Shown here piece by piece: positions 1,155-36,411 of a stretch of DNA of 39,329 nucleotides. The DNA comes from a bacterium. GTDB lineage: Bacteria; Elusimicrobiota; Elusimicrobia; UBA1565; UBA9628. The stretch spans positions 1 through 39,329 of the forward strand of contig JAKAQO010000012.1 in the NCBI GenBank assembly GCA_021822495.1, written 5' to 3'. The notes below the pieces were generated by a model. That model was not told the DNA's origin. It searched no databases and was given only the letters and a program-made list of their open reading frames with translations. The position numbers and the translations under genes were made by a program. Each line of letters opens with the position of its first letter. Within the stretch, counting starts at the first letter, position 1.

Positions 1155-1171
1155 AGCGTTAACTTTTGCTC

Positions 1172-3052
1172 ATGAATATCGAGCGTAAAAGAAGAATGAA
1201 GATTGGCAAAGCCTTGAAACAAAAGGCTGTGGCCCTTCTTGTCATTTGCGGGCTGATTACGGCCCCGCAAGGTTCTTCTTTGTCCTACGCCAATTCCGCC
1301 GCGCTCGATATCGATGTTCAAGTCAACGGCATCGCGATGATCAAGGACTTGTCCGCCTCCAGCGGTTCGAGTTCAGGAACGATTAACATCTCCTGGACGG
1401 AACCCGACCGACAAGGCACGACCGCGCCTTACTCTTACGTCGTTCATGCTTCAACCACCGGAGAGATTTCCGATCCCACGAGTTTTGCCGCAAGCCCCCC
1501 GCTGTCTGTTTTCTCGAATACTCCCATTCCTTCCCCAGGGCCGGGCGGAGGAAATGTCGGCGTCACCATTACAGGGCTTACTCCGGGATTGACTTATTGT
1601 TTCGCCATTGAAGAAAAAGACTCAAGCGTTCCCCCGTATTTCGGAACCTGGGAGCGCAACACCACGAAGAACTGGAACGTGAACAACTGCGCGGTTGCGA
1701 CCACTCCCATCGCGGCTCCTACGAATCTCGCCGCCCAGGCCGGACGGGATGAGGATTTCATCAGCTGGAATCCTCTGCCAAGCACGGCAACGGGCGCCTC
1801 TCTCTTGGCCTATTACGATCTCTACCGTTCCACCCAAAGCGGGACTGGATTTGTGTCCATCGCGACCACGACCGCAGTTTCCTATACCGATTATCCGCTA
1901 CTTCCCTTCAACACCTATTACTACGAAGTGACCTCAGTCATCAAGAGTGGAGCGCAAAGCGCGCCATCTGCGGTCGTCTCAACCGTTCCCTACACCGTCG
2001 TTCCAATGGAACCTTTGGGCGTTCTCGCCGACATTAGCGGATCGAGCATCACAATTACCTGGTCTCAAACGACCCAGTTTGGAGACGGCGTTTCTTTCAT
2101 CAGCACAACGACCCCTAGCGCGGGAGAACTGGAAGGATATCAAATTTTCCGTTCAACCATTCCCTGCGATCCCAATGTCGTTTTACTTTCAAGCCAGGTC
2201 TATACCAGTAACTCTTTCTCAGATGATATGGGTGGAAATCTCTACTACTACCAAGTCAAATCCTTTAACTCGTTGGGGACTTCGACGACGACGACGACTA
2301 TTTCTTACGCCGGAGACCAGACTTATTATCTTGACGACTGTTTTAGCGGAGTGACACTGAGCGCCAGTCAAATCTCCGCCCTTAACCACGCTCATAATTC
2401 TTATGGCGGAAACGTTCAAATCGCCCGCTCTTTCCTACCGGAAAGTTCAGCGGAAGGCGTTTTACGATCGGTAGTCTTTACGCCGATGGTCAACAATAAA
2501 GTCATTCCTGATTTTTATTTCTCATCCCCGGTTACGGTCACATTGGCCTATATTCTTAACTCCGGCGGACAACCCACTCCAGCGGATATGAGCGCCCTTT
2601 CCAATACCAACGCTCAAGACATGGGCATGTATTGGGATAACGGCATTCAATTCAACAAGCTCTACGGAACGATTAACTTCCTCAATCACACCGTGAATGT
2701 CCAAACTCCAAATTTAGGGACCTTTGAAATTAGAAGCCTCTACCGGACGACTTCTTCTCCTGTTTTTGATATCTCAAATATTTCCGGCCGGATTATCACT
2801 CCGACTTCCGGAGGGCTTAACTCGGTTCTTATTTTTACCTACGACCCAGGTCCCAACAATGTTTCCGTCAGCGGAAAGATTTTTGACGTCAGAGGCGACT
2901 TTATCGCCGATATGCAAAACGGCCCCGGAGGAAATCAGCTGCAGTGGAACGGGCATGCTTCCAACGGAGCCGTCGTCGCCAGCGGGGTCTACATTTACCA
3001 GATCCAGGGCGGCAAAAAAATATTTAACGGAACCGTGGTGGTGGCCCGGTGA
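1172..3052 (+). CDS. Secreted fibronectin type III protein with C-terminal FlgD/T9SS-like sorting domain
   Basis: About 626 residues. A basic N-region followed by a hydrophobic core (AVALLVICGLITA) gives a signal peptide. Three FnIII-like modules follow at roughly 40-170, 180-275 and 280-385, each with the usual pattern (for example 'PTNLAAQAG...ISW' and 'YYYEVTS'). A beta-rich region follows, then a C-terminal domain from about 535 that ends GVYIYQIQGGKKIFNGTVVV. This is the typical shape of FlgD-Ig-like or type IX secretion C-terminal domains. The next gene carries the same domain alone. The start is uncertain: ATG 1172, or ATG 1196, which gives a more compact signal peptide. The likely role is a surface or extracellular protein; the ligand is unknown. 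Confidence 0.8.
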   Translation: MNIERKRRMKIGKALKQKAVALLVICGLITAPQGSSLSYANSAALDIDVQVNGIAMIKDLSASSGSSSGTINISWTEPDRQGTTAPYSYVVHASTTGEISDPTSFAASPPLSVFSNTPIPSPGPGGGNVGVTITGLTPGLTYCFAIEEKDSSVPPYFGTWERNTTKNWNVNNCAVATTPIAAPTNLAAQAGRDEDFISWNPLPSTATGASLLAYYDLYRSTQSGTGFVSIATTTAVSYTDYPLLPFNTYYYEVTSVIKSGAQSAPSAVVSTVPYTVVPMEPLGVLADISGSSITITWSQTTQFGDGVSFISTTTPSAGELEGYQIFRSTIPCDPNVVLLSSQVYTSNSFSDDMGGNLYYYQVKSFNSLGTSTTTTTISYAGDQTYYLDDCFSGVTLSASQISALNHAHNSYGGNVQIARSFLPESSAEGVLRSVVFTPMVNNKVIPDFYFSSPVTVTLAYILNSGGQPTPADMSALSNTNAQDMGMYWDNGIQFNKLYGTINFLNHTVNVQTPNLGTFEIRSLYRTTSSPVFDISNISGRIITPTSGGLNSVLIFTYDPGPNNVSVSGKIFDVRGDFIADMQNGPGGNQLQWNGHASNGAVVASGVYIYQIQGGKKIFNGTVVVAR

Positions 3053-3066
3053 AAAAGGAGACGAAT

Positions 3067-3465
3067 ATGAAAATTAAAAAATTAGTTCTAGCGATGGTCT
3101 TGGTCGTTCTGATGATGGCCAACCCCAAAGCCCAAAATGGAACCGCCAAATTCTACGGTCCTTTGAGCCGCTATATCACGCCCACTTCCGGCGGGCCTAA
3201 TTCCACGATTCTCTTTTGCTTCGATAATCCCAGCGATTCCGGAATCGTCGGAACCATTTACGATTTAAGAGGCTCAAAAATCGCTCAAATGAGCTCCAAT
3301 CAACCGGCGGCGGGAACCGGTTGTCCTCAGACCGGATTTCTGCCTCAGTACGTCTCCTGGAATGGACGAGGAATCAGCGGCGGGGTGGTCGCCAGCGGAG
3401 TTTATATTTACCAAATCGAGGTCGAAAGTCGCATCTACAGCGGGACCATCGTGGTGGTGAGGTAA
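3067..3465 (+). CDS. Small exported protein consisting of one FlgD/T9SS-like C-terminal domain
   Basis: 132 residues. The start is ATG 3067, six bases after AAGGAG (3055-3060); an in-frame GTG at 3049 overlaps the previous stop but lacks this spacing. The signal peptide is MKIKKLVLAMVLVVLMMANPKAQ. The mature part matches the C-terminal domain of the previous gene: 'ITPTSGGPNST', a strand with 'YDLRGSKIAQM', then 'VASGVYIYQIE' and a terminal 'IVVVR'. So it is a stand-alone sorting or Ig-like module with no passenger. It could be an assembly partner, a surface anchor or a remnant of a larger protein. It lies between a full-length carrier of the same domain and a PorV-like barrel, which supports a shared export route. 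Confidence 0.75.
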   Translation: MKIKKLVLAMVLVVLMMANPKAQNGTAKFYGPLSRYITPTSGGPNSTILFCFDNPSDSGIVGTIYDLRGSKIAQMSSNQPAAGTGCPQTGFLPQYVSWNGRGISGGVVASGVYIYQIEVESRIYSGTIVVVR

Positions 3466-3469
3466 TCCC

Positions 3470-5521
3470 ATGGAAAATAAAATAAAAATTTTAATCTTGC
3501 TGCTGGCCGCCGAGATTTTTCTCTCTCGGCCGCTCAAGGCCGCCTATGACGACCTGGGGGTCAGCGCGCGCGCGGTCGGAATGGGAAACGCCTTTACGGC
3601 GGTGGCCGACGACGCCTACGACATCTATTACAACCCCGCGGGTCTTGCGACTCTCGACCGCGCGGAACTCGTCACGACCTATGCCCAATTCTATCCGGGT
3701 CTAACCGACAGTTCAAATCTCTCTAATTCCTTCTTCGGCTATGCACAGCCGATTGACGAGGGGAGACAAGGAACCCTCGGCCTTGGATATAACCGCTTCT
3801 CTCTCAATGGGTTCTATCAAGAGAGTAGCGTCTACGCATCCTATGGACGAGAAATCAATACGGAAGGGCTTTTGCCGGGCCATCTTTACGGCGGGGTGAC
3901 ATTCAAATATCTGGACCGCTCTCTCAGCGGACTAGGAACTCTGGCGAGTTCGCCGCTGGGGCCGACCGGAATCGCTAACCCTGGCTCAGTTGACCCCGTC
4001 CTCAATCAAACGACGAGGACGAATTTCGACATGGATGGGGGTCTTCTCTACCGCCCGCTGGCCAACTGGGATTTTGGGTTTGCCAGCCAACATATCTTTG
4101 AGCCCAATATCGCCTTTGATCCGGCCCAGGGAGAAACCTTGGCCCGCGACTATAAATTCGGCGCGGCTTATCGAACTCCGTTTACGACTATCACGGGTGA
4201 ATACGACATCATCCAGGAGCCAACGATGACAATGGGTGAAATTATTTCGTTGGGAGCCGAAAAATGGTTCCCGACGCTCGCCCACGGAACGTTCGGAATC
4301 CGCGGAGGTTTAAGCGAGGGCAGCCTGAACTTCAGACAAATCTCCATGGGACTTTCATACCGGATATTTAAAATGCAGTTTGATTACGGTTTTGAACTTC
4401 CCCTCTCTGGAATCTCGATGAGCGCTTACGGCACCCAGAGATTCGGAATGAGTTTCCGGTTTGGCGAATCTCCGGAAGAACACGCGGCTTACGGAGAAGC
4501 CTTGCTTGAAAATACCGGCAAACTCGCTCAAGTGGGAACTCCGGAATTTAAATTCCAAGAGGGACGGCTCCTCAGGTTTGAGCAAGACGCGGTGGCCAAC
4601 TTCGTCAAGCAGGCTCATGACGACGCGGAAAAAGGCGAATTTACCCTGGCCTTGGACCGAATCAATCAAGCCATTTCTCTGAGTCCCAAAGACATGGTTC
4701 TCTCGGAAACCCAAGCGCGGCTTGCGGTGGTTGCCAATGTTTATCCCGAGCTTAAAGACTTCGCCTCAAGCGATGTCAAAGCTTCTCTCTATGTTGGAAT
4801 CATCCACTTCCTATCCGCTAACGATAAGAAAGCCTTGGAGCACATGAACTATGTCATCAAGCTCTCCCCCAATGATCAAAAGCTTAAGGATTTGCTCAAA
4901 GCGATGGAAGCTTTAAGCGGGCAACTGCCGCAAATCCCGACGCCCGTTCAAACTCCGGCCGCTACTCCCGCTCCCGCGCCAACCCAGGCTCCCGCTACGC
5001 CAAAGCAAACCTCAACCCAAACTCCCGAGGAGCAATATATCCAAGGGGCTTTATCTCTAATGGAGGTCAATCTCGATCTCAAGCAATATGATAAAGTAAT
5101 TGCCATGGGAGAAGGCGTTGTCAAGATTGATCCAACCAATGCCTTGGCCTATCTCCGAATGGGCGCGGCCTATTATGCGCTCAAAAAGTATTCAAAAGCG
5201 CAATGGGCCTTCAAGAAATCCCATGAGTATGAAACGGATCCCGAATCGCTAAAGAAAATCGAGGCCGCCTTGGATGCGTTGAGAAATCTGGTCAAGACGC
5301 AAAAAAAGAGTCCTCTCAAAAAGGCCAGGAAATCCAGTGCATCGCCTCAAGAGATTGAGAATCTCTATCAAGCCGGAGTCACCTTCTATGCCGAAGGCCG
5401 CTTGAAGGAAGCCGAGAATGTATTCCAGAAGCTCTTGGACGTGGCTCCTGATTACGTGCCGGCGCAAAGGGCACTTCAAAGAGTGCGCGCCGAAGAGTCT
5501 CAAGCCGGAGGACTTCAATGA
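3470..5521 (+). CDS. PorV/PorQ-type outer-membrane beta-barrel fused to a TPR domain
   Basis: 683 residues. A signal peptide (to about residue 24, ending PLKA) precedes the family hallmark 'SARAVGMGNAFTAVADD...YYNPAGLA'. That is typical of PorV/PorQ (UPF0164) barrels related to FadL/OmpP1. The barrel runs to about residue 328 with alternating aromatic strands. Next comes an alpha-helical part with TPR-like units ('AEKGEFTLALDRINQAISLSPKD'), a Pro/Thr/Ala-rich linker at about 485-520, and at least two further TPRs near 525-600 and 620-670. PorV in type IX systems shuttles cargo at the outer membrane; this role is inferred here from two neighbours with T9SS-like C-terminal domains. The TPR part would lie in the periplasm. 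The gene overlaps the next by ATGA. Confidence 0.85.
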   Translation: MENKIKILILLLAAEIFLSRPLKAAYDDLGVSARAVGMGNAFTAVADDAYDIYYNPAGLATLDRAELVTTYAQFYPGLTDSSNLSNSFFGYAQPIDEGRQGTLGLGYNRFSLNGFYQESSVYASYGREINTEGLLPGHLYGGVTFKYLDRSLSGLGTLASSPLGPTGIANPGSVDPVLNQTTRTNFDMDGGLLYRPLANWDFGFASQHIFEPNIAFDPAQGETLARDYKFGAAYRTPFTTITGEYDIIQEPTMTMGEIISLGAEKWFPTLAHGTFGIRGGLSEGSLNFRQISMGLSYRIFKMQFDYGFELPLSGISMSAYGTQRFGMSFRFGESPEEHAAYGEALLENTGKLAQVGTPEFKFQEGRLLRFEQDAVANFVKQAHDDAEKGEFTLALDRINQAISLSPKDMVLSETQARLAVVANVYPELKDFASSDVKASLYVGIIHFLSANDKKALEHMNYVIKLSPNDQKLKDLLKAMEALSGQLPQIPTPVQTPAATPAPAPTQAPATPKQTSTQTPEEQYIQGALSLMEVNLDLKQYDKVIAMGEGVVKIDPTNALAYLRMGAAYYALKKYSKAQWAFKKSHEYETDPESLKKIEAALDALRNLVKTQKKSPLKKARKSSASPQEIENLYQAGVTFYAEGRLKEAENVFQKLLDVAPDYVPAQRALQRVRAEESQAGGLQ

Positions 5522-22922: not shown

Positions 22923-23540
22923 TTATCTCTGTTTCAAATAAAAAGTGAGGATATGGCCAATGGCCATGTGCATATCCTCAATGACGCCGTACTGGCTGGA
23001 AGGAACGAGAATGGATAAATCAACCATTTTCTTTAACTCCCCGCCGTCAAAACCGAGAATGCCGACGGTCTGGGCTTTCTTCTTTTTTGCCAAGCGACAA
23101 GCCTTGATGAGATTTTGTGAATTTCCGCTTCCCGAAATTAAAATCACCAAATCTCCAGGATTTAAAATATTCTCCAGTTGCCGGCTAAAAATCTCATCAA
23201 AAGAAAGATCGTTTCCAATCGCCGTCAGATAAGGGATGTTCTCCGACAAGGACCGGCAGCGAATCTGAGGTCTTCCCGCTATATAAGCGGTTTTGGATAA
23301 ATCCGTCGCCCAATGAGACGCGGTCGCCGCAGACCCCCCGTTTCCCATGACAAAAATCTCGCGGCCTTCTTTTTCCGCCCGCTCGATTTTTTTCGCAAGC
23401 GCGTCAATGGCGCCAATGTCCAAATTCTCCCAATGCTGAAGAGATTCCGCCCGATACCAAGCGGCGAAATCTTGAGCGGACAATTTCCCGGGACCGACGA
23501 GATGGAAAGCCCCCGGACGGGTTGAATTTATTTTTTTCAT
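22923..23540 (-). CDS. gmhA: Sedoheptulose-7-phosphate isomerase (SIS domain)
   Basis: 205 residues. SIS-domain motifs 'VMGNGGSAATASHWATDL' and 'ISGSGNSQNLIKA' are present, plus 'EDMHMAIGHIL' near the end, which is typical of GmhA. It converts sedoheptulose 7-phosphate to D-glycero-D-manno-heptose 7-phosphate. The start ATG 23540 is chosen because a longer frame to 23618 would translate across repeat element E. The binding site GAGAGGG lies in that element, 12 bases upstream. The kinase, guanylyltransferase and phosphatase for the next steps are directly upstream on the same strand. Confidence 0.92.
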   Translation of the reverse strand: MKKINSTRPGAFHLVGPGKLSAQDFAAWYRAESLQHWENLDIGAIDALAKKIERAEKEGREIFVMGNGGSAATASHWATDLSKTAYIAGRPQIRCRSLSENIPYLTAIGNDLSFDEIFSRQLENILNPGDLVILISGSGNSQNLIKACRLAKKKKAQTVGILGFDGGELKKMVDLSILVPSSQYGVIEDMHMAIGHILTFYLKQR

Positions 23541-23548
23541 CGTTTTTT

Positions 23549-23620
23549 TAGTCCCTCTCTTCAGAACACAACCTAATGGTCGGGACAATGCCGACCTTAC
23601 GGTTATGAGGAAAGGCATTA
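23549..23620 (-). repeat. Dispersed palindromic element, copy E
   Basis: Read on the - strand: TAATGCCTTTCCTCATAA, CCGTAAGGTCGGCATTGTCC, CGACCATTAGG, then a longer degenerate right arm ending GAGAGGGACTA. It fills exactly the gap between the hddA-like stop codon (TAA at 23620-23618, part of the element edge) and the gmhA start. The inner stem GGTCGG/CCGACC is perfect in this copy. Confidence 0.8.
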
Positions 23621-24589
23621 GCGACTGACATGGATTATTTTCGATCCCTCGGGCTCGAATTTAAACGGAATCTGGCGCCAAGCTTTAAGGCTATGAATTA
23701 CGGAAGAACGCTTGGACGGCGGGCAAAAAAGAAGCAAAAACCCGCCGCCCCCAGCTCCCAGAATTTTCCCGCCTACCGCGCCCGCTTTGAGAGCTCTGCG
23801 GTAAACCTGATCGATTTCGTGGTTGGTCACCTCTCCGGTCAGGGATTTTTTGATCTCCCAACTCTCCCGCAGAACTGGTCCGATGGCGTCCACATCTCCT
23901 TTTTGGATTCTGTCTTTAGACCAATAAGCGAGTTCTCTTAGACGTCTCAGACTCTCCATATTCTGAGAGAAATTATTGCGGGCTTTCTTGAGGATGGAAC
24001 CGGCCTTGCGACGCATTCCAGTATAAAACAAAATCATTCGGCTAAAAAGAGCTTCCCGCGTTTTCTCGCTTAGAATTACGGGATTTACTTTCACGCTCTC
24101 ATCCGGCAAAAATTCGATAAATTGAAAACCGCCGTAAGCCGCGATGTATTGATCTTGCTTCCCGATAGGATCTTTGAGCCGCTCAATTTCAATTTCACAC
24201 GCGCCTCGGGCCAATTCTTCCGCCGTGCGAAATTCGCCCTTAAAGGCTGACAAAGCGTGCAAGGTTCCGACAGTAAAGCTGGACGAAGAACCCAAGCCGG
24301 TTCCGCCTGGGATATCGGCCATGGAAGTCATCTCGATTCCGCGATGAAGACCGCTTTGAATCAAGCATTCCCGCCACAGAGGATGGCGAATTTGAGCGGC
24401 CGAATCAACCAGTTCGCTTTTTGAGTATTTGAGAAACACCGCCTCGTCAAAATAGCGGTTAACCGTGATATACATATACTTGTCAATCGCGAAAGACAAG
24501 ACTGCGCCGTGTTCGTGGCGATAAAATTCTCTTAAGTCCGTGCCGCCGCCGGCGAGACTAATTCTAAAAGGCGTGCGGGAAATAATCAT
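23618..24589 (-). CDS. hddA: D-glycero-alpha-D-manno-heptose 7-phosphate 1-kinase-like GHMP kinase
   Basis: 323 residues of the GHMP fold: an N-terminal 'SRTPFRISLAGGGTDL', the phosphate-binding loop 'IPGGTGLGSSSSFTVG' and C-terminal 'GKILGAGGGGFLLLF'. These match HddA-like sugar kinases, which phosphorylate the 1-position of heptose 7-phosphate in the GDP-heptose route. The neighbours gmhA, gmhB and an hddC-like gene make that assignment better than a fucose or galactose kinase. The start overlaps the upstream gene by ATGA, and the stop forms the edge of repeat copy E. Confidence 0.88.
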   Translation of the reverse strand: MIISRTPFRISLAGGGTDLREFYRHEHGAVLSFAIDKYMYITVNRYFDEAVFLKYSKSELVDSAAQIRHPLWRECLIQSGLHRGIEMTSMADIPGGTGLGSSSSFTVGTLHALSAFKGEFRTAEELARGACEIEIERLKDPIGKQDQYIAAYGGFQFIEFLPDESVKVNPVILSEKTREALFSRMILFYTGMRRKAGSILKKARNNFSQNMESLRRLRELAYWSKDRIQKGDVDAIGPVLRESWEIKKSLTGEVTNHEIDQVYRRALKAGAVGGKILGAGGGGFLLLFCPPSKRSSVIHSLKAWRQIPFKFEPEGSKIIHVSR

Positions 24590-25281
24590 TGAGACAATCC
24601 TTTTTCAAAGGCAGAAAAGCGCTCCGGGGTTCCTAAATCCACCAGGGCTTCATCGGTCACGTATCCCGAGAGGCTAAGGCCATTTTTGAGCGCCTGAGGG
24701 AAAATATCCCGCCCAAAATCCGAGGGCCGGTCTTTGGGAATTAAGTCTAAAAGAGGTCTTCTAATCGCCCAAACGGCCGCGCAGGATAAATGTTTGAAAG
24801 GCTGCGCGTGAGCATCCCGGTAAAAGCCTAAAATTTTATCTCCCTCAAGGCGAACCAAATCCGAGTCATGAGGATGATCGGTTTTAAAAAGAACTAGGCT
24901 GGCAGCGGAAGAATGTCCAGCGTGAAAGTCCAAAAATGGTTTTAAGTTCATCTCAACAAACAAATCTCCATAAACGACCAAAATATCCTCCTGAGAGTTT
25001 TGACACGCGTCCCGCACGCATCCCGCCGTGCCTCGCGGCTCAGTCTCAATATAATACTCAAGATAGACCCCCCATGTCTCGCCTTTTTGGAAATAATCGC
25101 GCACAATATTAGCTCTGTGCCCCAGGCAAAGAGAAATTTCGCGAAATCCCGAAGACTTAAGCCACACAATCAAATGCTCTAAAATCGGTTTTCCTAAAAC
25201 CTTGAGCATGGGCTTGGGGATATCCTTAGCAAAAGCGCTCATCCGGGTTCCAAACCCGCCCGCGACAATCAAAACCTTCAT
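24586..25281 (-). CDS. hddC: Heptose-1-phosphate guanylyltransferase-like nucleotidyltransferase
   Basis: 231 residues. The signature 'GGFGTRM' with 'DIPKPMLKVLGKPIL', and 'VVYGDLFVEMNL' carrying the metal-binding Asp, place it in the sugar-nucleotidyltransferase family (RmlA/GMPP-like). By context it is HddC, forming GDP-D-glycero-alpha-D-manno-heptose. The nucleotide used cannot be read from the motif alone. The start ATG 25281 overlaps the gmhB stop as ATGA, preferred over an upstream in-frame ATG at 25296 inside gmhB. It ends in an ATGA overlap with the kinase gene. Confidence 0.87.
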   Translation of the reverse strand: MKVLIVAGGFGTRMSAFAKDIPKPMLKVLGKPILEHLIVWLKSSGFREISLCLGHRANIVRDYFQKGETWGVYLEYYIETEPRGTAGCVRDACQNSQEDILVVYGDLFVEMNLKPFLDFHAGHSSAASLVLFKTDHPHDSDLVRLEGDKILGFYRDAHAQPFKHLSCAAVWAIRRPLLDLIPKDRPSDFGRDIFPQALKNGLSLSGYVTDEALVDLGTPERFSAFEKGLSQ

Positions 25282-25829
25282 TGTTTTAAAATCCACCGGG
25301 AAGCCTCTAAAAGATTTTTGAATATTTTTTTGGGCTTTGCCTTGTATATCCCGTCTTTTCCCCCTTTTCCAGTCTTAACGAGCAAAGGCGCGCATCCCGC
25401 GCGATGAGCCGCCAAAATATCAGCGCTTGAGTCCCCGACAAAATAAGAGGATCTCAGATCAAGATTAAATTTTTTTTGCGCCTTCTTGATGAGCCCAATT
25501 TCAGGCTTGCGGCATGAGCAAGGCTTGCCAAAATCCGGATGATGGGGGCAGTAATAAACGGCGTCAAGACGAGACTTGGGATTTTCTCTTTTAAGCTCCC
25601 GGCGCAAGGCGCGCGTAATTATCTCAAGTCCTGATAAACTCAGGCGTCCGCGAGCAACGGCCGACTGATTGCTGATGACGATGACTTTAAAACCTTTGGC
25701 GCGTAAACGGGCAACGGCTTCTCCAGAGCCTGAAATCAGTTTCAAATCCTCGACTTTGGATAAATAGTCCACTTCTTCGTTTAAGACTCCGTCCCGGTCT
25801 ACAAAAACAGCGCGGTTTTTTAATTTCAA
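25278..25829 (-). CDS. gmhB: Heptose-1,7-bisphosphate 7-phosphatase (HAD family, GmhB)
   Basis: 183 residues. HAD motif I 'VFVDRDGVLNEE', motif II 'VISNQSAVARG', the zinc-binding loop 'YYCPHHPDFGKPCSCRKP' and motif IV 'FVGDSSADILAA' are all present and in the GmhB order. It removes the 7-phosphate from heptose 1,7-bisphosphate before nucleotidyl transfer. It overlaps the upstream GT2 stop (25826-25829) and the downstream hddC-like start, so four heptose enzymes are coupled in one operon. Confidence 0.93.
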   Translation of the reverse strand: MKLKNRAVFVDRDGVLNEEVDYLSKVEDLKLISGSGEAVARLRAKGFKVIVISNQSAVARGRLSLSGLEIITRALRRELKRENPKSRLDAVYYCPHHPDFGKPCSCRKPEIGLIKKAQKKFNLDLRSSYFVGDSSADILAAHRAGCAPLLVKTGKGGKDGIYKAKPKKIFKNLLEASRWILKQ

Positions 25830-26830: not shown

Positions 26831-27979
26831 TTAAATGATAGCGTCATGGCTTGATTTTCTCCACAAGCGCGCCAAAAATTCCTCCGCTGGTAAAATCTCA
26901 ATTCCAGAATCACTGACGCGCGGGCGCTCTTCCAGGCACACGATGATTTTTTTCTTTAGCGAAATTTCCTCGGCTAAGGCGAGAAGAGAACGCTCATCTC
27001 GAGAAGTCACGACGGCTTTCCCCTTGACCTCGATTGCGACCGCGTCTCCAATCAAGAAATCCACTTCGAATCTCGAGAGGCTCCGCCAATAAGACAGGGG
27101 ATAATCTAAATTAAAATACTCAAGGGCCGCCTTTATTTCGGCAAAAATCAAGTGTTCAAAGGCCTTGCCGAACAAATCGCCGTGGCGCGCGATTTCAAAT
27201 CTTCCAAGAAGTTCATTGACGACTCCCACGTCAAAAAAATAAAACTTCGGCGTCGCGACGGCTTTTCTAGTGATTGTTTTCCGGTAAGGCGGGAGTTCAT
27301 AGGCTATCAATGTATCATAGAGAATCTGAAAATATCCCTTAACCGTATTGAGCGAAAGCCCCACGTCGCTGGCGATATTGGAATAATTAATCTGCTCGGC
27401 ATTAGAAAGGGCCGCGGTCGTTAGAAAGCGGTTGAAAGCGCCGACGTTTCTGGTGAGGCCTTCCGCGCGAATTTCTTCCTCGAGATACAGCCCCGCGTAA
27501 TTTTTAAGTTCCGCTTTAAAATCATCGCTGTCAATGATGCCTGGCAACGAGCCTCTCCGCACACGCAAGTCGATTCTCGCCTCCCCTAATTCGGAGGAGA
27601 CCAGCGGGAACAAATTTTTTCTCCAAATACGCCCCGGGAGGAGATTAACCCCGGAGCGGCGAAGTTTTCGCGCGCTAGATCCCGTCATCAAAACGCGCAA
27701 ATCTTTATTGCGATCGAGCATGACTTGGACCTCGTCAAAAATCTCTGGAAGTTTTTGAGCCTCATCTATGACGACAATCCGAGTTCTTTCCCTAACGCGC
27801 TGACGCAAAAGTTCGGGTCTGGCGCTGAGCTCCCTAAAAACATTGGTTTCGGAAAGGTCGAAATACTGCGCTCCCGAGAGGCTCGCGGCCAAGGTGCTTT
27901 TTCCGGTCTGACGAGGCCCCAAAAGCAAAAGAGATTTTTTTTGAAGCAAGGACTCTAAATTCAATCGTCGCTTATACAT
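26831..27979 (-). CDS. AAA ATPase with DUF4143 domain
   Basis: 382 residues. An N-terminal AAA_14 domain has Walker A 'LLGPRQTGKSTLAA', Walker B 'RIVVIDEAQKLPE' and sensor 'VLMTGSSARKLRR'. The C-terminal half carries the DUF4143 region, ending with a restriction-endonuclease-like 'FEVDFLIGDAVAIEVKGKA' (D, E-x-K pattern). Such proteins are common, often isolated and laterally moved; function is poorly known. The start is uncertain: ATG 27979 (MYKRRLNLE), ATG 27988 or a TTG at 28015, none with a good binding site. It has no obvious link to the glycan genes around it. Confidence 0.85.
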   Translation of the reverse strand: MYKRRLNLESLLQKKSLLLLGPRQTGKSTLAASLSGAQYFDLSETNVFRELSARPELLRQRVRERTRIVVIDEAQKLPEIFDEVQVMLDRNKDLRVLMTGSSARKLRRSGVNLLPGRIWRKNLFPLVSSELGEARIDLRVRRGSLPGIIDSDDFKAELKNYAGLYLEEEIRAEGLTRNVGAFNRFLTTAALSNAEQINYSNIASDVGLSLNTVKGYFQILYDTLIAYELPPYRKTITRKAVATPKFYFFDVGVVNELLGRFEIARHGDLFGKAFEHLIFAEIKAALEYFNLDYPLSYWRSLSRFEVDFLIGDAVAIEVKGKAVVTSRDERSLLALAEEISLKKKIIVCLEERPRVSDSGIEILPAEEFLARLWRKSSHDAII

Positions 27980-28005
27980 TATAATCATGGTGCAATATTT
28001 AGCTA

Positions 28006-28030
28006 AAAAATGCAATAATGTTGCATTTTT
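28006..28030 (-). terminator. Perfect 10-bp hairpin with A/T tracts, likely (bidirectional) terminator
   Basis: The sequence AAAAATGCAA-TAATG-TTGCATTTTT is a perfect 10-bp stem with a five-base loop. On the - strand it lies 16 bases after the stop of the gene ending at 28047 and finishes in a T run, as a Rho-independent terminator would. The stem is AT-rich, so strength is uncertain. It also lies just before the ATPase gene and could act as an operator. Confidence 0.55.
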
Positions 28031-28046
28031 AAATTAAGGATACTCC

Positions 28047-29759
28047 CTAATTCTTAGCGGGCGGCGGTCCAGTCCAAGGGACGAGCGGTCCCCGAAACCT
28101 TATTGAAAGATGCGTTGGACTCGGGGGAGGCGGCAAAATAGGCGGATTAACCGGCGGCTCTTTTGAGCGCTGGAGTTCAACCTGGGACAAAACCAAACTC
28201 GGCGCAATAACCGACATCGGAACCCAGCCAATCCGATGATTGATGACCGTCATATCTTTTCCTTCGCCCAAAACATGGCTAAGAAACCCAAGAGGAGTTC
28301 CTACTAAATCCAAGCCTCGCACCAAGGTTAATTTTCCCGTCTGAGCGTTGACCAAGTAAATAAGTTCCGGCATAATCCGCAAGGATTCTTCTCCTGCGGC
28401 GCTATTTTCCCGGGTAAAAGCCCTTGTCTTTTGAATCCAAAGCCCATACGGCTTTTTTTCTTTTCTTAGCTCCTTAAGCAGTATCTTCATGAGTTGCGCT
28501 TGCGAATAGCGATGTTTAGTTTCTAAAAAAAGATTGCTCGGCATCGCGCGCGGATAAGCCCCCGCATCAGACCTGGCATGTCCATTGGAATGCGGGAAAC
28601 CGATCACGGGATAGCGGGACAAAAGAAAATTTTTAAGGCGCCCGTTTTTAACGAGAAGAACTTTTTGGGCTTTAACGCCTTCAGCATCATAGGAATAAAA
28701 ACCCACCAAGGGTTTTTTCTTGAAAAAATGGGCCAAGGGGTCGTCAATTAAAGTTAGGTCTCTTGAAAACACAATCTTTCCCACTTTGCCTCTCAGAATT
28801 TGCGCGCCATTCGGATTGCGCACGGATTCCCCGGAGAAATTGAGACCCAAGGATGAGACGATAGCCGAGGCGACTGAAGGATCAATCAACGCCGGAGCGT
28901 TAAAGGGCGAGGTCGAGGACGCAAGCAGAAGCTGATTAATTTCCGATATCATCTGTTTGGCTTGAGTTTTCATCAAAACAGAAGAGGGAAGAGTCGCGCT
29001 CGATAAGGAAATAAAATTGCGCCCGGCATAAAGCCTCATCCCGTCTTTGGAAACAGCGGCGATTTCAAGTTCGAAATGAAAAATATCCTGCGCGGAATGA
29101 ACGCGAGTTCCTTCTGAATTATACAAACGGGAAAGAACGCGCCTTCTTTCCACAGAGACGTTTCCTTGAATCAGCGAAGGCTTTTGGGCGAAAACAGAGC
29201 TCACTTCTCGACAAATGCGATTCATCTGGTGAAAGAAAGAAATGCCATCGTCTAATACGTCAAACGGGGCGGCGCTGACCACTGGTTTTTCGTGGGAAAG
29301 GTCATCCGTATCATATTCCCTTTTTCCATTGCGAACCCGTTGGGCTTCTTTTCTCAAAAACCCGGCCGCGGCGGATTTATAAGCCTCATCCAAACTGAGC
29401 CAAAGATCGTGTTTGAGAGCGAAGGCATTGTCATCCAGCGAAATCCATGACCCGAGAGCGCCCAGGGGCGCGGGGTTTAAATGATTATCCAAAGCGTAAC
29501 TGCCGACCCGAACATCCGTAAAAAGCGAACGCCCGCGCCAATTATCCGCCCAATTGAGCGCCCCCATATCGCATTCCGAATCCCAGTTTTCCACGTCCGA
29601 CACGTTCATGGAAATAAAATAGGGAAGCGGATATCCCGGCTCCTGCAAATGAGCCATGGCATTTGTAATTTCAGAAGATACGACCACCCCGACCGTCGAA
29701 TCCAGGGCGAAAGCAGAATAAGGAAGAAATAAAAGTCCAAGGCATAACATTTTTTTCAT
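28047..29759 (-). CDS. Exported TldD/PmbA-family protein lacking the metal site (TldE-like)
   Basis: 570 residues with a clear signal peptide (MKKMLCLGLLFLPYSAFA). The binding site AAAGGA is five bases before ATG 29759. It is a diverged paralogue of the gene at 31990-33813, with shared landmarks: 'NSEGTRV', 'LIDDPLAHFFK', 'KVLLVKNGRLKNFLLSRYP', 'FPHSNGHARS', 'TLVRGLDLVGTPL' and 'GWVPMSVIAPSLVLSQVEL'. Where the paralogue has HEALGH, this one has SSLGLN (about 302-307), and the Cys of the C-terminal metal site is also missing. It therefore resembles TldE, the non-catalytic partner in cytosolic TldD/TldE. The tail is Pro-rich. Export is unusual for the family. Confidence 0.85.
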   Translation of the reverse strand: MKKMLCLGLLFLPYSAFALDSTVGVVVSSEITNAMAHLQEPGYPLPYFISMNVSDVENWDSECDMGALNWADNWRGRSLFTDVRVGSYALDNHLNPAPLGALGSWISLDDNAFALKHDLWLSLDEAYKSAAAGFLRKEAQRVRNGKREYDTDDLSHEKPVVSAAPFDVLDDGISFFHQMNRICREVSSVFAQKPSLIQGNVSVERRRVLSRLYNSEGTRVHSAQDIFHFELEIAAVSKDGMRLYAGRNFISLSSATLPSSVLMKTQAKQMISEINQLLLASSTSPFNAPALIDPSVASAIVSSLGLNFSGESVRNPNGAQILRGKVGKIVFSRDLTLIDDPLAHFFKKKPLVGFYSYDAEGVKAQKVLLVKNGRLKNFLLSRYPVIGFPHSNGHARSDAGAYPRAMPSNLFLETKHRYSQAQLMKILLKELRKEKKPYGLWIQKTRAFTRENSAAGEESLRIMPELIYLVNAQTGKLTLVRGLDLVGTPLGFLSHVLGEGKDMTVINHRIGWVPMSVIAPSLVLSQVELQRSKEPPVNPPILPPPPSPTHLSIRFRGPLVPWTGPPPAKN

Positions 29760-29811
29760 GGTTTCCTTTCGTACAGAATTTGGAGCCAACCATTCCCTCT
29801 CTTAGGCTCGG

Positions 29812-31083
29812 TCATGATTCTTTCTTTAAAAATAAAGTATCGAAAGCGTAGGCCGCTTGTGGAATAACTCCTACCATCAAAGTCGTATGATAGCGCATGA
29901 CCGCCCAAAAAAGTCCGTAAACCACCGACATCACTATTGGAAATAGGATTAAAAACCCAATTGGATAACCATTTTTCCAAGCTAAAATATTGCCCCAAAG
30001 TCCAAAAGCCATGACCCCGCCGCCTGTCAGAATCCCAATCCAAGAAAGAATTGAGTGTGAAAAAATCGAGTGCGGATATTTCCATCCAGGATTAGGATAA
30101 GGCCGCCAAAGTTTTAGGAGCTTATGAATGAAGGCGCCCAAAAAGAGCGCCGGATGATGGATGAAAATTTCGAGACAAGCACGATAAAAAATCGGTTCGG
30201 CCTGGGATAAGGTCAAATGTTGAGAGTTGACTGAGGAAATAACCGCGTCTTTTCCCGCCCCAAGGGGATATTCGAGCGGAATATCCGGACGCGAATAGTT
30301 ATAGAGAAGGGATAAATACATGACCGAGCCCCCCATGCTTGCCCCAGCCACCCAACGATTTAAGATTCTTTCATTGCGATACATCCAGATACCCTCTAGG
30401 ATAAAAGCGCATAGAAGAAAAACTCCAATCGTTTGCGCCCAATATTTGGGTTTAATTTTTGAAGCGGCTAAAATGGCAAAAGCGCCCCCCATTGGGATAA
30501 AAGGAGACCGGGTTAAACACAGAATCCCAAAAACCGTTCCCATTGCGGCATAAGGCCATAAACTTTGTGAATCCGAGTATTTTTGCCAAAGAAAAATCCA
30601 AATCAAACTCAAAAAGGTGATGAGAGGTTCTCGAAACATCGTTGCGGAAAAATAAATCCATTCAGGGAAAAAAGCCGCAAACAAAAGAGCTATGAGGGCT
30701 GCCCGCCCGCTTTGGAAAACAGAAAGAGTCACCCAATACGTCATCCAACAGCACAAGACGCCGATGACGATATTAAGCCCCATTCCCACAAGAGGCGAAA
30801 GCCCAAAAAGGAAATGAGCCCCCGCCAACACAAGGGGATAAAAAGGTTCGCGAGAGGTCTCTAGATGACCCGGCGTCAGAGAAAGCTCGCCGCGCTCAAG
30901 CAAGGCAAGTCCAAGGCGATTGTATCCATCGGGATCAAGCGCCGTAATCTGTTGGCTTTCGGTTTTATATTCCTTGAAAGTATGAGTGTAAGCGTAAAAA
31001 GCGTAGGCCGTTCTTAGGATAAACGCCGAGAAAAGAATAAGAGTAATTTTTAAAGGCGCCTGAGTTATCTTTTTCTCGCGCAT
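29812..31083 (-). CDS. Polytopic GT-C-type membrane glycosyltransferase
   Basis: 423 residues with about nine TM helices. After TM1 the first loop has 'ITALDPDGYNRLGLALLERG', the Asp-containing motif of PMT/ArnT-like GT-C enzymes. 'LTRSPFIP' and 'GIWMYRNERIL' are also seen in such proteins. There is no large soluble C-terminal domain. It overlaps the methyltransferase gene by 19 bp and is followed after 52 bp by the exported TldE-like gene, so all are one transcript. Substrate unknown. Confidence 0.75.
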   Translation of the reverse strand: MREKKITQAPLKITLILFSAFILRTAYAFYAYTHTFKEYKTESQQITALDPDGYNRLGLALLERGELSLTPGHLETSREPFYPLVLAGAHFLFGLSPLVGMGLNIVIGVLCCWMTYWVTLSVFQSGRAALIALLFAAFFPEWIYFSATMFREPLITFLSLIWIFLWQKYSDSQSLWPYAAMGTVFGILCLTRSPFIPMGGAFAILAASKIKPKYWAQTIGVFLLCAFILEGIWMYRNERILNRWVAGASMGGSVMYLSLLYNYSRPDIPLEYPLGAGKDAVISSVNSQHLTLSQAEPIFYRACLEIFIHHPALFLGAFIHKLLKLWRPYPNPGWKYPHSIFSHSILSWIGILTGGGVMAFGLWGNILAWKNGYPIGFLILFPIVMSVVYGLFWAVMRYHTTLMVGVIPQAAYAFDTLFLKKES

Positions 31084-31988
31084 ATTTCCATTGAATCTCG
31101 AGTATCGATGTAGGCGAGCTTGTTTTCAAGACCAAGAGCCTTAATGACTCCGCCAACCGTCAAAAAAACGGATTTCGGATAGTTTTTCAATCGACTCAGC
31201 CAATACGAATAGGAAAAAATTCGCCCAAAAGATTTAATGGTCAATATTTCAAACCCATTTTCAATCAGCATTCGCGTCAATGTCTGTCTTGAAAAATAAT
31301 AAATGTGCGCCGGGCGAAGCCCCCACCAGTAACTGCGCATAATTTTGGCCGAAAGACTTCCGATGTCGGGAGTCAAAAGGTAGAGAATCCCGCCGGGTTT
31401 TAAAAAATTGCGGGATGAGAGAATTGCCGCTTTGGGATCGAGAAGATGCTCGATGACATCTGACATCGCAACGACATCAAAACTTCTTCCCTGGATGCTC
31501 TTTGGATTTTCAATTGATTCTGCGTAGCACTCAACTTTAAATCTTTTCTGGGCCTCTTGGGTTGCCCAACGGGAAGGCTCAAGACCCGTGACTTCAAAGT
31601 CGGTTCTCGCAGCGTTAAGGAAATAACCAACGGAAGAACCAAACTCAAGCAAAGAGCCCGCCGAAACAAACCGCCGAATAGTATTGAGGCTTAAATGCGC
31701 GTTAATGGAACGGCTTGAGCTTTCTAAAAGATAGCTTTCATCAACGTAATTTCCGTAGCCGGAAAGAATAGCTTCGGCCGTGGGGCGAGGGTTGGTATAA
31801 CATAAACCGCATTTTAAACAGCGGACAATGCGGCCATAGTTACGAAACTCATCGGTCGTGGCGGCAAAAGCTCCAGACTCTTGATCATGCGGAGTCAGAT
31901 ACGGACGCTGGTAAAGAACGGCGCTTTCTCTGGAACCGCACAAATTGCAGGGCGCTTCTTCTAAAAGTAAAGAAGAGTCTTCTGCCAT
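31065..31988 (-). CDS. Class I SAM-dependent methyltransferase with N-terminal zinc-finger-like motif
   Basis: 307 residues. The N-terminal 'CNLCGS' and 'RCLKCGLCYTNPRP' form the two Cys pairs seen before many Methyltransf_23 domains in sugar clusters. The SAM domain runs about 105-215, with 'LLEFGSSVGYFL' (motif I), 'VTGLEPS', 'VVAMSDVIEHLLDP' and 'LKPGGILYLLTPD'. The likely target is a sugar or a lipid-linked glycan, by analogy with nearby genes. It starts one base after the exported peptidase gene's stop, with GGGGAAA upstream inside that gene, and overlaps the GT-C gene. Confidence 0.86.
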   Translation of the reverse strand: MAEDSSLLLEEAPCNLCGSRESAVLYQRPYLTPHDQESGAFAATTDEFRNYGRIVRCLKCGLCYTNPRPTAEAILSGYGNYVDESYLLESSSRSINAHLSLNTIRRFVSAGSLLEFGSSVGYFLNAARTDFEVTGLEPSRWATQEAQKRFKVECYAESIENPKSIQGRSFDVVAMSDVIEHLLDPKAAILSSRNFLKPGGILYLLTPDIGSLSAKIMRSYWWGLRPAHIYYFSRQTLTRMLIENGFEILTIKSFGRIFSYSYWLSRLKNYPKSVFLTVGGVIKALGLENKLAYIDTRDSMEICARKR

Positions 31989-31989
31989 T

Positions 31990-33813
31990 TTAATTTTTCC
32001 CCGAGGACATGGACGAGGGCGCGGTCAAGACCGGAGGCCGAGCGTCCCCAGCCGTCTTGAGAAATACTTTGCCGCTGGGCGGCGCGGTCAAGACCGAAGG
32101 CCGAGCGTCCCCGTCGCGTTTTAGTAAATGCGCCAGCGGAGAGGGCAAAATCGGAGGCTTGAGGCGGTTTTCAGGCAAACGCTCAAATTCAATTTCTGAA
32201 ACTAAAACGCTCGGCGCTATTTGATCCACCGGAACCCAGCCCGATTCCGCCCCGCAAAAATAGGGATTGGAAAGAGTTTCATCGTTAGAAGCCGCGAGAA
32301 TACGATTTAAAACGACCAAGGGCGTGACGACAATTTTAACGCCTCGGACCAGGGTCTCTTTTCCGTCCTTAGCTGAAATTCGGTAAACCAAACGCGGGCG
32401 CAACTGCAAGGTCTGGGCCTGGGTTCTCTCGCTGGGATTGTCCCCGCCGTAAGCGCCGACAACCCTAAATCCGTAAGGCTTGTTTTCTTGGCGCAGGAGT
32501 TTGATTAATTTCTTTTTCAGCGCTTTGGGTGTCACAGGGTTTTGAGCCTCAATCATTAAGTTGGCCATGCGCCCCAAGGGACGTAAGCTTGGAGAGGAAC
32601 GCCCATGCCCATTGGAATGCGGGAAATTTTTAAGCGGCCAGCGAGACATTAAAAAATTTTTCAAGACGCCGTTTTTAACTAAAATGACTCTTTGGGCAGG
32701 CACGCCCTCATCGTCAATCTGGTAATGCCCATGAAGCGGGACCCCCTTAAAAAAATCCATCATGGGGTCATCAATCACAGACAGAAAACTCGGAATAATT
32801 TTTTTGCCGACCATTCCTTTAAATATTTGTCCCTGCAAAGGGTCTCTTTGCCTTTCCCCCTCCAGTTTATGCCCCAAGGCCTCGTGAAATAAAACCCCCG
32901 TCATTTCTGGATCTAAAATTGCGGGCGCGGCAACCGGAACTTGAAGGGGAGCCTTTCGCAACTCTTTAAGCTCAAGAGCCAATCTTTCCACGGCCTTCGC
33001 CAACTGTTTTTGAGAAGGAAGTCGGCTCATATCTTTGAAAACCCACTCGCGGTAATTATTGACCTTAAGCCCGTCTTTTGCCCGGGAATTAACCTCAATA
33101 CTGAGAGAATTGGGCAAATTCTCATAAGGCCCCGCGACCTTGGTTCCTTCGCTGGTCAAAAGATAGCGCCGCGCCCATCCTAAATGCAAAACGACGGTTC
33201 CGTGATAAATATAAGGATAAGAGCGCAAAAGCTTGCTCAAGCTTTTAACCAAGGACTCCGCCTTAGATTTATCGAAATCAGGAGCGGCTTGGGGTTGATA
33301 AGAACGGGTTGAGGGTTCATCGGTAAAATCCGGCAAATTCTCCGTCCGATATTCCGTTACGCGCTTGGCTTTTTTGTCCAAATATCCCGCCACCGCGTCT
33401 TTATAGGCTTTATCGGTCAATATCCACAAATTTTCGCGCAATTCTTTTCCCGTCAGAGGAGATTCCACGCTTAGGCCCCGATACTGAATGGAGGTGTTAT
33501 CCATCTTTTTATTTCCGTAGCGAACTTCCGCAAAAAGAGTTTGGGAATGCTCCGCGCTTTCAGACACAATCCCGCCAAAAGAAGCGGAAATATACATCCC
33601 TTGCCGAGAGACCATGCGATAGGCGATAAAATAAGGCGGTCCAAAAGCGCCTTCTTTTAAATCTTTGAGCGAACGTGTCATTTCTTCCTGCAGGGGAGAA
33701 AAAACGGCCTCATCCACCGCTGGGAAAGTAACGGCTCTGACAGAAACAGCCAAAGAAACAACACTGAGGATGAAAAGAGTGAGTTGACGACTACTTCTTT
33801 TGAATAATCTCAT
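31990..33813 (-). CDS. Exported TldD-family metallopeptidase with intact HExxxH
   Basis: 607 residues. A basic N-terminus and hydrophobic core (LTLFILSVVSLAVSVRA) form a signal peptide. The middle carries 'GVLFHEALGHKLEGE', the HExxxH of TldD (H310, E311, H315). The C-terminal part has 'NPYFCGAESGWVP' with Cys520 in the position expected for the third zinc ligand, and the family segments 'VKNGVLKNFLMS' and 'FPHSNGHGRS'. Known TldD enzymes are cytosolic and act with TldE on modified peptides and unfolded antitoxins; an exported version suggests a substrate in the envelope (inference). The tail contains a 63-bp internal duplication. It overlaps the O-antigen ligase gene by 23 bp. Confidence 0.88.
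   Translation of the reverse strand: MRLFKRSSRQLTLFILSVVSLAVSVRAVTFPAVDEAVFSPLQEEMTRSLKDLKEGAFGPPYFIAYRMVSRQGMYISASFGGIVSESAEHSQTLFAEVRYGNKKMDNTSIQYRGLSVESPLTGKELRENLWILTDKAYKDAVAGYLDKKAKRVTEYRTENLPDFTDEPSTRSYQPQAAPDFDKSKAESLVKSLSKLLRSYPYIYHGTVVLHLGWARRYLLTSEGTKVAGPYENLPNSLSIEVNSRAKDGLKVNNYREWVFKDMSRLPSQKQLAKAVERLALELKELRKAPLQVPVAAPAILDPEMTGVLFHEALGHKLEGERQRDPLQGQIFKGMVGKKIIPSFLSVIDDPMMDFFKGVPLHGHYQIDDEGVPAQRVILVKNGVLKNFLMSRWPLKNFPHSNGHGRSSPSLRPLGRMANLMIEAQNPVTPKALKKKLIKLLRQENKPYGFRVVGAYGGDNPSERTQAQTLQLRPRLVYRISAKDGKETLVRGVKIVVTPLVVLNRILAASNDETLSNPYFCGAESGWVPVDQIAPSVLVSEIEFERLPENRLKPPILPSPLAHLLKRDGDARPSVLTAPPSGKVFLKTAGDARPPVLTAPSSMSSGKN
32018..32112 (+). repeat. 63-bp-period tandem duplication at the 3' end of the exported tldD-like gene
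   Basis: Two 32-bp blocks starting GGCGCGGTCAAGACCG (32018-32049 and 32081-32112) differ at one base. They encode GDARPxVLTAP twice on the - strand, 21 residues apart, in the protein's tail after the conserved domain. The repeat keeps the reading frame. Confidence 0.85.
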
Positions 33814-36358
33814 AGCCGGAAGAATGCGATGGAACTTCAGAAGGGTTTTGAATCAAGGGTTTGCCTTTTGGATTTTTGAGCCTCTGTTCAACGGCTGCGA
33901 GGTTATGCTGGGCCTGGGCGAAATTTGGGTCAAACTGAAGAGCCTCTTGGTAGGCGGCCTTGGCGAGTTCAAAATTATTCATCATGAAATAAGCGTTTCC
34001 TAAACTTGTGTAAATCTCTCCCCCTTCCGCGTGTTTATCCGGCGAAGGGTGCCGATGAACTGGATAAGGAATTCCAGGAACATGAACGTAGGTTTGATAA
34101 CTGAGAATCGTTTTTCTAAGGAAAGGCTTGACGATAAGAGACGGGTCTACCGCGCATTTATCCGCCAAAATATATTCCTGATACGCTTTGACGGCATCGG
34201 CATAGCGATGTTCCATCATGTAAATCTGACCCATCCTCAAGAAGTTCGGTTCAAAAACAGGATCGATGGTCTTGTAAAGCTTAAAGCGGGTGAGGGCGCG
34301 GTTTAAATACATCTGCGCATCCTCGGGATGCCCGTGATCAATGGCCCATTGAGCGCGCTTGAGATGAAGGACTCCTACCTGATAGTGCATCTGAACGTAA
34401 TTAGGCGAAAGTTTTCGGACTTCATTATAGGCGTCCAAGGCCCGCTCATAATCATCGCGAGGAACATTGTTTTTATCGCCCCAGGTGGGATTATAAGTTT
34501 TCTGCATATTAAACCGGTCGTTGAAAACATTTCCCATAAAGTAAAGCGCCATCGCAAAATTTGGATCAAGCCGATGCACCGTTTGATATTCAGACAAAGC
34601 CTTGTCCCAATCATGTTCCTTTGAAAAATAAATGGCGATATTATGATGAATATCGGCTTTAAAATAGCCCCAGAAGGTATAAAGAATAGGAAGCGTTGAC
34701 AAGACAAGCGCGCCAATGGCAGGATTCTCAGACAAAAGAATAAGGCGGAAAAAAACATATCCCAAACCAAAGACGCAGGCTAGCAGGGTTCCCCACGACA
34801 ACCACCACTGGAGGATTTCCCCTCCCATGGTCAGGCGATCAATCGGACCTTGCAAAACGTTAAATTGAGTCAAGATCAGAAAAATGACGTAGAAAAGCCC
34901 GCCCCAAGCAGCCAGCCGAACCGGCCAGATTAAAAATTCAGACAGCGTTTTCCAAAATGAATCCGGCGCCGCGCCATCTGGTTTAGCGTTTTTCTCATCA
35001 ACAAGATGAGATTCATACAACCCTTTTCCTCGGGAAAGGTTTACAATCATCCCTGGCAAAAGACCCAAATAAACTCCGGAGGAGACAAAACGAAGACTGA
35101 CATCGAAAAAATTGTGGCACAACATGCCGATAAACGCAATCATATAGCCCAAAAGATCAAAAACTCTAGGCGGAATTTTTTTGTCTTTCGATGCGTAAGA
35201 AGCGTCTAACATCTGGCCTAAAGACTTAAAACCAACGACCAAGGTACTAAGAATAAGCCATAAAAACACGCCAAAACCCAGGATTCCGTTGTCAAACAAC
35301 TCTTCTAAGTATTCGTCTTCCGCGTGATCGGTTTCCGTATTATGCTTGGCCTCGATATGAAAAATTGGAGGACGCCGAAAAGCGGGATAAACCGGCGGAA
35401 AACTTCCGATGCCCGTTCCAATAAATGGTTGAGTCATAATCATTTCCCAAGTGGCTTCCCAGGTAAATAAGCGAAAATTGACCGAAGCAAGGCGACCGGT
35501 TAAGTCTTTCGTGAAGATATATGAAAACGGCAATAAGACCGCGAGCGCCCCTCCAATCAAATATTTTCGATAGGGAGCAATGAGTTCCTTAAAATAGATA
35601 AAGGCAATGACGCAGAAAACGACGATCACAATTCCAAATCCGACCCAAGCCCCCTTGGTTCCCGTAAAATAGAGATCAACTAGAAGCATCAGCATGAGCG
35701 GGATCAAAGACATTCGGCGGCCTTTAAGGTAACGCAAGAGTAAAATGGGAAAAATAATAACGAGAAAATCCGCGAAAAAATTGGGATTGCCATAAGTCGA
35801 GAATACGCGGTCGCCAAAAGCCATGCGCCAGATAAATGGATCAATTCCATGACCAATTCCCGGCGGGAAGAAATGAGTATCAATAACTTGGAGAAACCCA
35901 TATCCCACCGCCACCCAGGCCGTCCAAATTAAGATTTTTGTCAACCGTTCAGAGGCTTCGGCGTCAAATTCATAAATAATGATGAGCGCCGCCGACATAA
36001 AGAAAAAATGACGGAGAAAAAAATCAACGCTGGCCATGTGATAGGGCGCATGGATAAAGGATAGAATTCCAACCAAAAGATAAGCCAAGAACGGAGACAA
36101 GCACACCAAATCTTCTCGGCTAAGCGCCGCGCCGCCGGATTCAATCAGACGACTGAGCCATAGGGTCAAAAGCGCTAATCCCCCCATTTGCATGACGGAT
36201 ATTTTGACCTGGGCGGAATCGTAGGTTCTCAGATAAAACAGGGAAGAAATTAAAAAATAGAGAAGCGGAAGCCACCAAACGATGGATTTATGGAGAAAAG
36301 ATTGAAGTTCCAAAGACTTCTTAAGCGAAGCGATTTTGTCTTTAATTACGGGCGGCAT
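33791..36358 (-). CDS. O-antigen ligase / polymerase-like membrane protein with C-terminal TPRs
   Basis: About 855 residues. Ten or more TM helices occupy roughly 25-460 and 485-590. The Wzy_C-type loop includes 'YGNPNFFADFLVIIFP', 'TGTKGAWVGFGIVI', 'RLFTWEATWEMIMTQPFIG' and 'DHAEDEYLEELFDNGILG', all characteristic of O-antigen ligases and PglL-like oligosaccharyltransferases. The last 260 residues contain TPRs ('DKALSEYQTVHRLDPNF', 'ELAKAAYQEALQFDPNF'), facing the periplasm if topology is standard. It would join a lipid-linked glycan to lipid A core, protein or another glycan; the TPRs favour a protein partner. ATG 36358 is taken as start; a TTG just upstream (36361) is possible. First gene of its operon. 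Confidence 0.87.
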   Translation of the reverse strand: MPPVIKDKIASLKKSLELQSFLHKSIVWWLPLLYFLISSLFYLRTYDSAQVKISVMQMGGLALLTLWLSRLIESGGAALSREDLVCLSPFLAYLLVGILSFIHAPYHMASVDFFLRHFFFMSAALIIIYEFDAEASERLTKILIWTAWVAVGYGFLQVIDTHFFPPGIGHGIDPFIWRMAFGDRVFSTYGNPNFFADFLVIIFPILLLRYLKGRRMSLIPLMLMLLVDLYFTGTKGAWVGFGIVIVVFCVIAFIYFKELIAPYRKYLIGGALAVLLPFSYIFTKDLTGRLASVNFRLFTWEATWEMIMTQPFIGTGIGSFPPVYPAFRRPPIFHIEAKHNTETDHAEDEYLEELFDNGILGFGVFLWLILSTLVVGFKSLGQMLDASYASKDKKIPPRVFDLLGYMIAFIGMLCHNFFDVSLRFVSSGVYLGLLPGMIVNLSRGKGLYESHLVDEKNAKPDGAAPDSFWKTLSEFLIWPVRLAAWGGLFYVIFLILTQFNVLQGPIDRLTMGGEILQWWLSWGTLLACVFGLGYVFFRLILLSENPAIGALVLSTLPILYTFWGYFKADIHHNIAIYFSKEHDWDKALSEYQTVHRLDPNFAMALYFMGNVFNDRFNMQKTYNPTWGDKNNVPRDDYERALDAYNEVRKLSPNYVQMHYQVGVLHLKRAQWAIDHGHPEDAQMYLNRALTRFKLYKTIDPVFEPNFLRMGQIYMMEHRYADAVKAYQEYILADKCAVDPSLIVKPFLRKTILSYQTYVHVPGIPYPVHRHPSPDKHAEGGEIYTSLGNAYFMMNNFELAKAAYQEALQFDPNFAQAQHNLAAVEQRLKNPKGKPLIQNPSEVPSHSSGYEIIQKK

Positions 36359-36411
36359 CAAGAAATCCTAGCAAAAACGCGAGCAAATATCGTTAGATAT
36401 CGTAAAGAGGT

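Follow-up and report, generated by a model that had tools for sequence, protein, structure and literature searches.

TldD and TldE (PmbA) of Escherichia coli form a hollow heterodimer with the metal bound in TldD alone; substrates are bound through main-chain contacts and only unfolded peptides can enter (PMC5810440; PMC10885120). Each of the two proteins is also capable of forming homodimers (PMC5810440).

TldD and TldE are known as cytosolic proteins. We have analysed a locus of an Elusimicrobiota bacterium that encodes two members of the family, A and B, both with signal-like N-terminal segments. The whole stretch of DNA analysed (39,329 nucleotides) is referred to as the window. The pair belongs to an exported branch that spans many phyla, is apparently undescribed and would represent an unstudied envelope peptidase. 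What is new here is its history, with a probable separate origin of the inert partner.

Two members of the TldD/TldE family, one with a predicted metal site

The genes of A and B lie on the minus strand at the positions originally predicted (Table 1). Both proteins matched the Pfam model of the third domain (PF19289, PmbA_TldD_3rd) at E about 1e-26, and neither A nor B matched the first-domain model PF01523. Since the predicted N-domain of B aligns structurally with the TldD fold, the missing PF01523 match likely reflects sequence divergence. A and B are full-length members of the TldD/TldE (MEROPS M103) family. The AlphaFold2 model of B (pLDDT 84, pTM 0.86) aligned with E. coli TldD (5njc_C) over 443 residues at 3.4 A with a VIA Z of 33.9, and with E. 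coli TldE with a VIA Z of about 26, B thus being closer to TldD than to TldE. The only strong structural matches of the model were TldD/TldE structures. Residues 273-538 of A matched the TldD structure 5nj5_A at E 1.1e-15. The whole TldD/TldE fold is found in the predicted structure of B and is expected for A from its full-length homology to B.

Table 1. Positions of the A/B genes, their motifs and the adjoining genes in the window
Feature	Position	Strand	Basis or remark
A, exported catalytic TldD-family protein	31990..33813	-	607 aa; PF19289 E 1.3e-26; E. coli TldD match
Putative signal peptide of A, MRLFKRSSRQLTLFILSVVSLAVSVRA	33733..33813	-	Hydrophobicity heuristic and family comparison
HEALGH, residues 310-315 of A	32869..32886	-	Aligns with H262/E263/H267 of E. 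coli TldD
Cys520 of A, within CGAESG, expected as third metal ligand	32254..32256	-	Aligns with E. coli Cys454
B, exported inactive partner	28047..29756	-	569 aa from ATG; PF19289 E 1.4e-26
Putative signal peptide of B, MKKMLCLGLLFLPYSAFA	29703..29756	-	Hydrophobicity heuristic; ATG start
SSLGLN of B, at the place of HEALGH in A	28839..28856	-	Alignment
O-antigen ligase (Wzy_C) carrying TPR repeats, immediately upstream of A	33791..36361	-	Local context
Methyltransferase gene, between A and B	31065..31988	-	Placement in the window's genus only
GT-C (PMT_2-like) membrane protein gene, between A and B	29812..31083	-	Placement in the window's genus only

The gene of B had been listed at 28047-29789 from a TTG codon; the ATG at 29756, preceded by AAAGGA, is a better start. 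In a comparison of two species of the window's genus, dN/dS was 0.075 in B and 0.104 in A. Rather than a decaying copy, B is a real protein under purifying selection.

The alignment revealed the signature of the TldD catalytic subunit in A, namely HExxxH and the third-ligand Cys. The two His of HEALGH are expected to be metal ligands and its Glu the catalytic residue. The original prediction had correctly read HEALGH in A and SSLGLN in B; its "C-terminal Cys" is the Cys of CGAESG and not the last residue, and B, taken to be free of Cys, lacks one at the third-ligand position and has Cys residues at other places. The third-ligand Cys, which had not been used to define A, was present in 44/44 exported A and 0/41 B. 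The position of E. coli Lys456 is occupied by Ala in nearly all exported A, and CGAESG stands in place of the CGKEG of E. coli, so that the clamp is different in detail.

Signal peptides were called by a simple hydrophobicity heuristic, not SignalP. In the surveyed Elusimicrobiota, its threshold was passed by 32 of 36 A and by all 37 B, but by no more than 3 of the 31 cytosolic copies, in line with the signal-like N-termini first proposed for both proteins. We infer that A and B are located in the periplasm. Cytosolic TldD/TldE copies are also encoded in the window's genome.

The exported pair across phyla

Of 198 genomes in the phylum Elusimicrobiota, 105 contained A, with cytosolic relatives included in the count. 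Forty loci of the class were read; at those with both members recovered, one copy was active and the other inactive, and the two were mostly side by side. A motif scan across named genomes from multiple phyla, many of them MAGs named by their depositors, returned at least 80 loci, and the matches listed came from Acidobacteriota, Myxococcota, Gemmatimonadota, Pseudomonadota, Bacteroidota, Planctomycetota, Verrucomicrobia, Fibrobacteria, Calditrichota, WOR-3, Aminicenantes, Sumerlaeota, Obscuribacterales and Elusimicrobia. Exported active-then-inactive tandem pairs are thus present in Elusimicrobiota as well as in a dozen or so further phyla. The division of labour proposed for the pair, with one active and one inactive exported copy, is conserved across the class and beyond, and the expected co-occurrence in other genomes was observed.

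Among the matches listed, the active copy came first in all simple pairs (55/55), it stood alone in 21 loci (about half of them at locus ends), larger arrays were seen in 4 loci, and there was neither a reverse order nor a pair of two active copies. A plasmid search returned distant TldD copies only. Arrays of exported TldD-like genes are found in two gammaproteobacterial bins, SB0661 and SB0670 (loci L136 and L089).

Two independent natural in-frame A-B fusions (L269 and L273) have no inner signal peptide. Open-frame lengths had suggested several fusions, of which these two proved real. The structural model of a fusion was weak (pLDDT 66, pTM 0.68), and its orientation was not used. MAFFT aligned inactive rows with the half of the fusion to which they do not belong; tandem genes translated across their stop codons were therefore used solely as paired rows of the alignment.

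A proposed envelope peptidase with one active wall

The two natural fusions, the fixed gene order and the predicted fold of B lend indirect support to a heterodimer of A and B. The TldD/E working principle, transferred outside the cytoplasm, is the best reading of the pairing, the conserved residues and the fold of B. By analogy with E. coli, the exported pair would probably be an envelope peptidase of the "pencil-sharpener" kind that acts on unfolded peptides and has a single active site and an inert wall. A and B would build a TldD/TldE-like heterodimeric shell in the periplasm, whose sole metal site would be contributed by A (His310, Glu311, His315 and Cys520). B would be the inert copy that closes the chamber, perhaps tuning access or stability. 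Unfolded peptides would be fed into the chamber via main-chain contacts and cut stepwise. Such a mode of action would suggest general clean-up or trimming of peptides in the envelope as the likely job.

Alternatively, A and B could each be homodimeric, or A could be a homodimeric protease and B have an unrelated non-catalytic role. This would fit the lone A2 copies (active copies related to the window's A) of Myxococcota, Sumerlaeota and one Elusimicrobiota genus, as well as the homodimers that E. coli TldE and TldD are able to form (PMC5810440). However, the strict tandem order, the two fusions and the purifying selection on B argue against it, and we consider it unlikely.

Origin of the inert partner

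In a tree of 116 rows, the exported A and B formed a clade of their own, separate from the cytosolic TldD and TldE (100/100), and no grouping of A or B with either of these was seen. Within it, most inactive copies (B1, 35 rows) formed a single clade (99/97). B of the window and four relatives (B2) joined the Elusimicrobial A2 (100/97), and this group next joined the active singletons of Myxococcota and Sumerlaeota (99/97). Since B2 branches with Elusimicrobial A rather than with inactive partners from other phyla, the inert partner would have arisen independently. A single clade of all exported inactive copies appeared in 0% of the bootstrap trees.

We have weighed this against one ancient inactive exported lineage, in which the window's B would be an orthologue of the other B and would look A-like owing to tree error or gene conversion. 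A single inactive clade was rejected only marginally in the AU test (p 0.049; 49 rows, LG+F+G4), this value coming from a full search that superseded an earlier fast-search run in which both constraints had been rejected. B1 and B2 came together in a fast LG tree built from the C-terminal half (97.6), and profile scores were mixed: the Elusimicrobial A2 profile was the best for four of the five B2, the B1 profile was slightly higher for the remaining one, and for four of five the 35-row B1 profile outscored the five-row profile of the singletons. Against a single lineage stand the 100/97 of the careful tree and the agreement of the two protein halves, which under a mixture model, taken separately, both placed B2 with A2 (96 and 98). 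The same placement was obtained at 94 when the A-conserved columns were left out. In pairwise comparison, the match of the window's B to the lone Archangium copy reached 284 bits, and no match to a B1 protein in the same search exceeded 144 bits. The A2 helix sequence is kept in B2, as seen when B2 is aligned with A2 (for example RLEGERQRDPEESQAF in the B of locus L050), and attraction of long B branches would act in the opposite direction. We therefore regard a single inactive lineage as improbable, and a separate origin of B2 from B1 as likely, with good but imperfect support.

B2 would have arisen when an exported active singleton was duplicated, independently of B1 and of cytosolic TldE, and is probably the third inert partner in the superfamily after these two. 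The existence of genomes with a lone A2 copy fits such an origin. That TldE, B1 and B2 arose separately suggests that a chamber in which one wall is active and the other dead was selected for repeatedly, and the lone, paired and fused forms provide a direct testing ground for this idea. In the L136 array, one catalytic-type copy has HEVLGN, and Ser instead of Cys; this dead copy may be a fourth case.

Genomic neighbourhood

The ligase-TPR, A, methyltransferase, GT-C and B genes follow each other head to tail in this order, with overlaps or gaps of at most 55 bases, as in the single operon originally proposed. The ligase-TPR gene adjoins A in eight genomes of the window's family, and a ninth has a ligase fragment at a contig end. 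The expected recurrence of the pair beside an O-antigen ligase thus held within the family and did not extend beyond it: in the surveyed Elusimicrobiota the ligase abuts the pair only there. Three genomes of the family (G124, G179 and G187) have the ligase and no exported TldD copy.

From this arrangement, the pair had been viewed as part of a glycan-ligase machine, that is, as a dedicated envelope complex that processes a glycopeptide or modified peptide together with the ligase, the methyltransferase and the GT-C protein. The conserved contact with the ligase in the family, the tight gene overlaps in the window and the heptose-nucleotide operon next door are compatible with such a role. However, a ligase-TPR gene was present in 30 of 30 Elusimicrobiota genomes tested, including those without the pair or with the other pair type; most of the class, like other families and phyla, has the pair without the ligase; insertion of the methyltransferase and GT-C genes is confined to the window's genus; and no precursor peptide was identified. 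This part of the original prediction was not supported, and we consider a dedicated complex very unlikely. A survey of 107 neighbouring ORFs in other phyla revealed no dominant or recurring family and no recurring sugar gene. Together with the presence of the ligase regardless of the pair, this suggests that the glycan setting is probably a matter of local neighbourhood.

The pair could also be an N-deacetylase or another amidase acting on glycans or conjugates. Some TldD/E relatives are reportedly N-deacetylases, going by the title of a 2022 paper by Vobruba that is cited in PMC10885120, which makes a non-peptidase activity a rival reading; the glycan neighbourhood and this family precedent, as far as that title conveys it, speak for it. 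The wide distribution of the pair and the lack of a recurring sugar gene in the surveyed neighbourhoods speak against it, and it appears highly improbable.

In microcin B17 processing, modification serves as the stop signal for trimming; by analogy, the exported pair might in the window's family have been recruited to ligase-linked trimming of a glycosylated or modified exported peptide, with the modification as stop signal, which we find very doubtful.

Several other genes of the window and of related loci were recorded. At 22923-25829 (minus strand), gmhA-, hddA-, hddC/GTase- and gmhB-like genes stand in a row, scoring below the NCBIfam equivalog cut-offs, and form a probable GDP-D-glycero-D-manno-heptose operon. 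Between B and these genes lies an AAA ATPase with DUF4143 (26831-28015, minus strand), unlike its neighbours in kind. At 1166-5521 (plus strand), two proteins sharing a C-terminal "ITPTSGG...VVASGVYIYQI" domain are followed by a PorV/PorQ-like protein, a grouping suggestive of type IX-like secretion cargo. In one Acidobacteriota lineage (L077, L088, L091, L103, L118, L120 and L129), an LptF/LptG permease-like gene is found near the exported pair.

Comparison with known systems

The literature searched, with subscription papers mostly outside its scope, contained no description of exported TldD/E. The statement that no such system had been described therefore holds for this literature, and the pair itself is common. 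MXAN_2519, a "Peptidase U62" listed as vesicle-enriched in the vesicle proteome of Myxococcus xanthus (PMC4158809), may be an exported member of the family.

Outside Elusimicrobiota, the window's A and B are most closely related to the A2 singletons of Myxococcota (such as Archangium and Hyalangium) and Sumerlaeota. Unlike the window's pair, these are singletons: no inactive partner was found in their genomes, except for one Archangiaceae genome with a type-1 pair. E. coli TldD/TldE (M103, PDB 5nj5) has its fold in common with A and B (PMC5810440) and likewise carries HExxxH and the distant Cys in one subunit only, the inert partner having the same fold. The E. coli proteins are cytosolic and encoded by unlinked genes, whereas A and B are exported, form a separate clade, are longer, give no match to PF01523 and have CGAESG instead of CGKEG.

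The exported type-1 pair (A1/B1) of Acidobacteriota, Planctomycetota, Bacteroidota, Gammaproteobacteria and others may be compared with database names such as "metallopeptidase TldD-related protein". It is exported, tandem and active-then-inactive like the pair of the window, but its inactive partner B1 would belong to another lineage than B2, the window's B being placed outside the B1 clade (AU test marginal).
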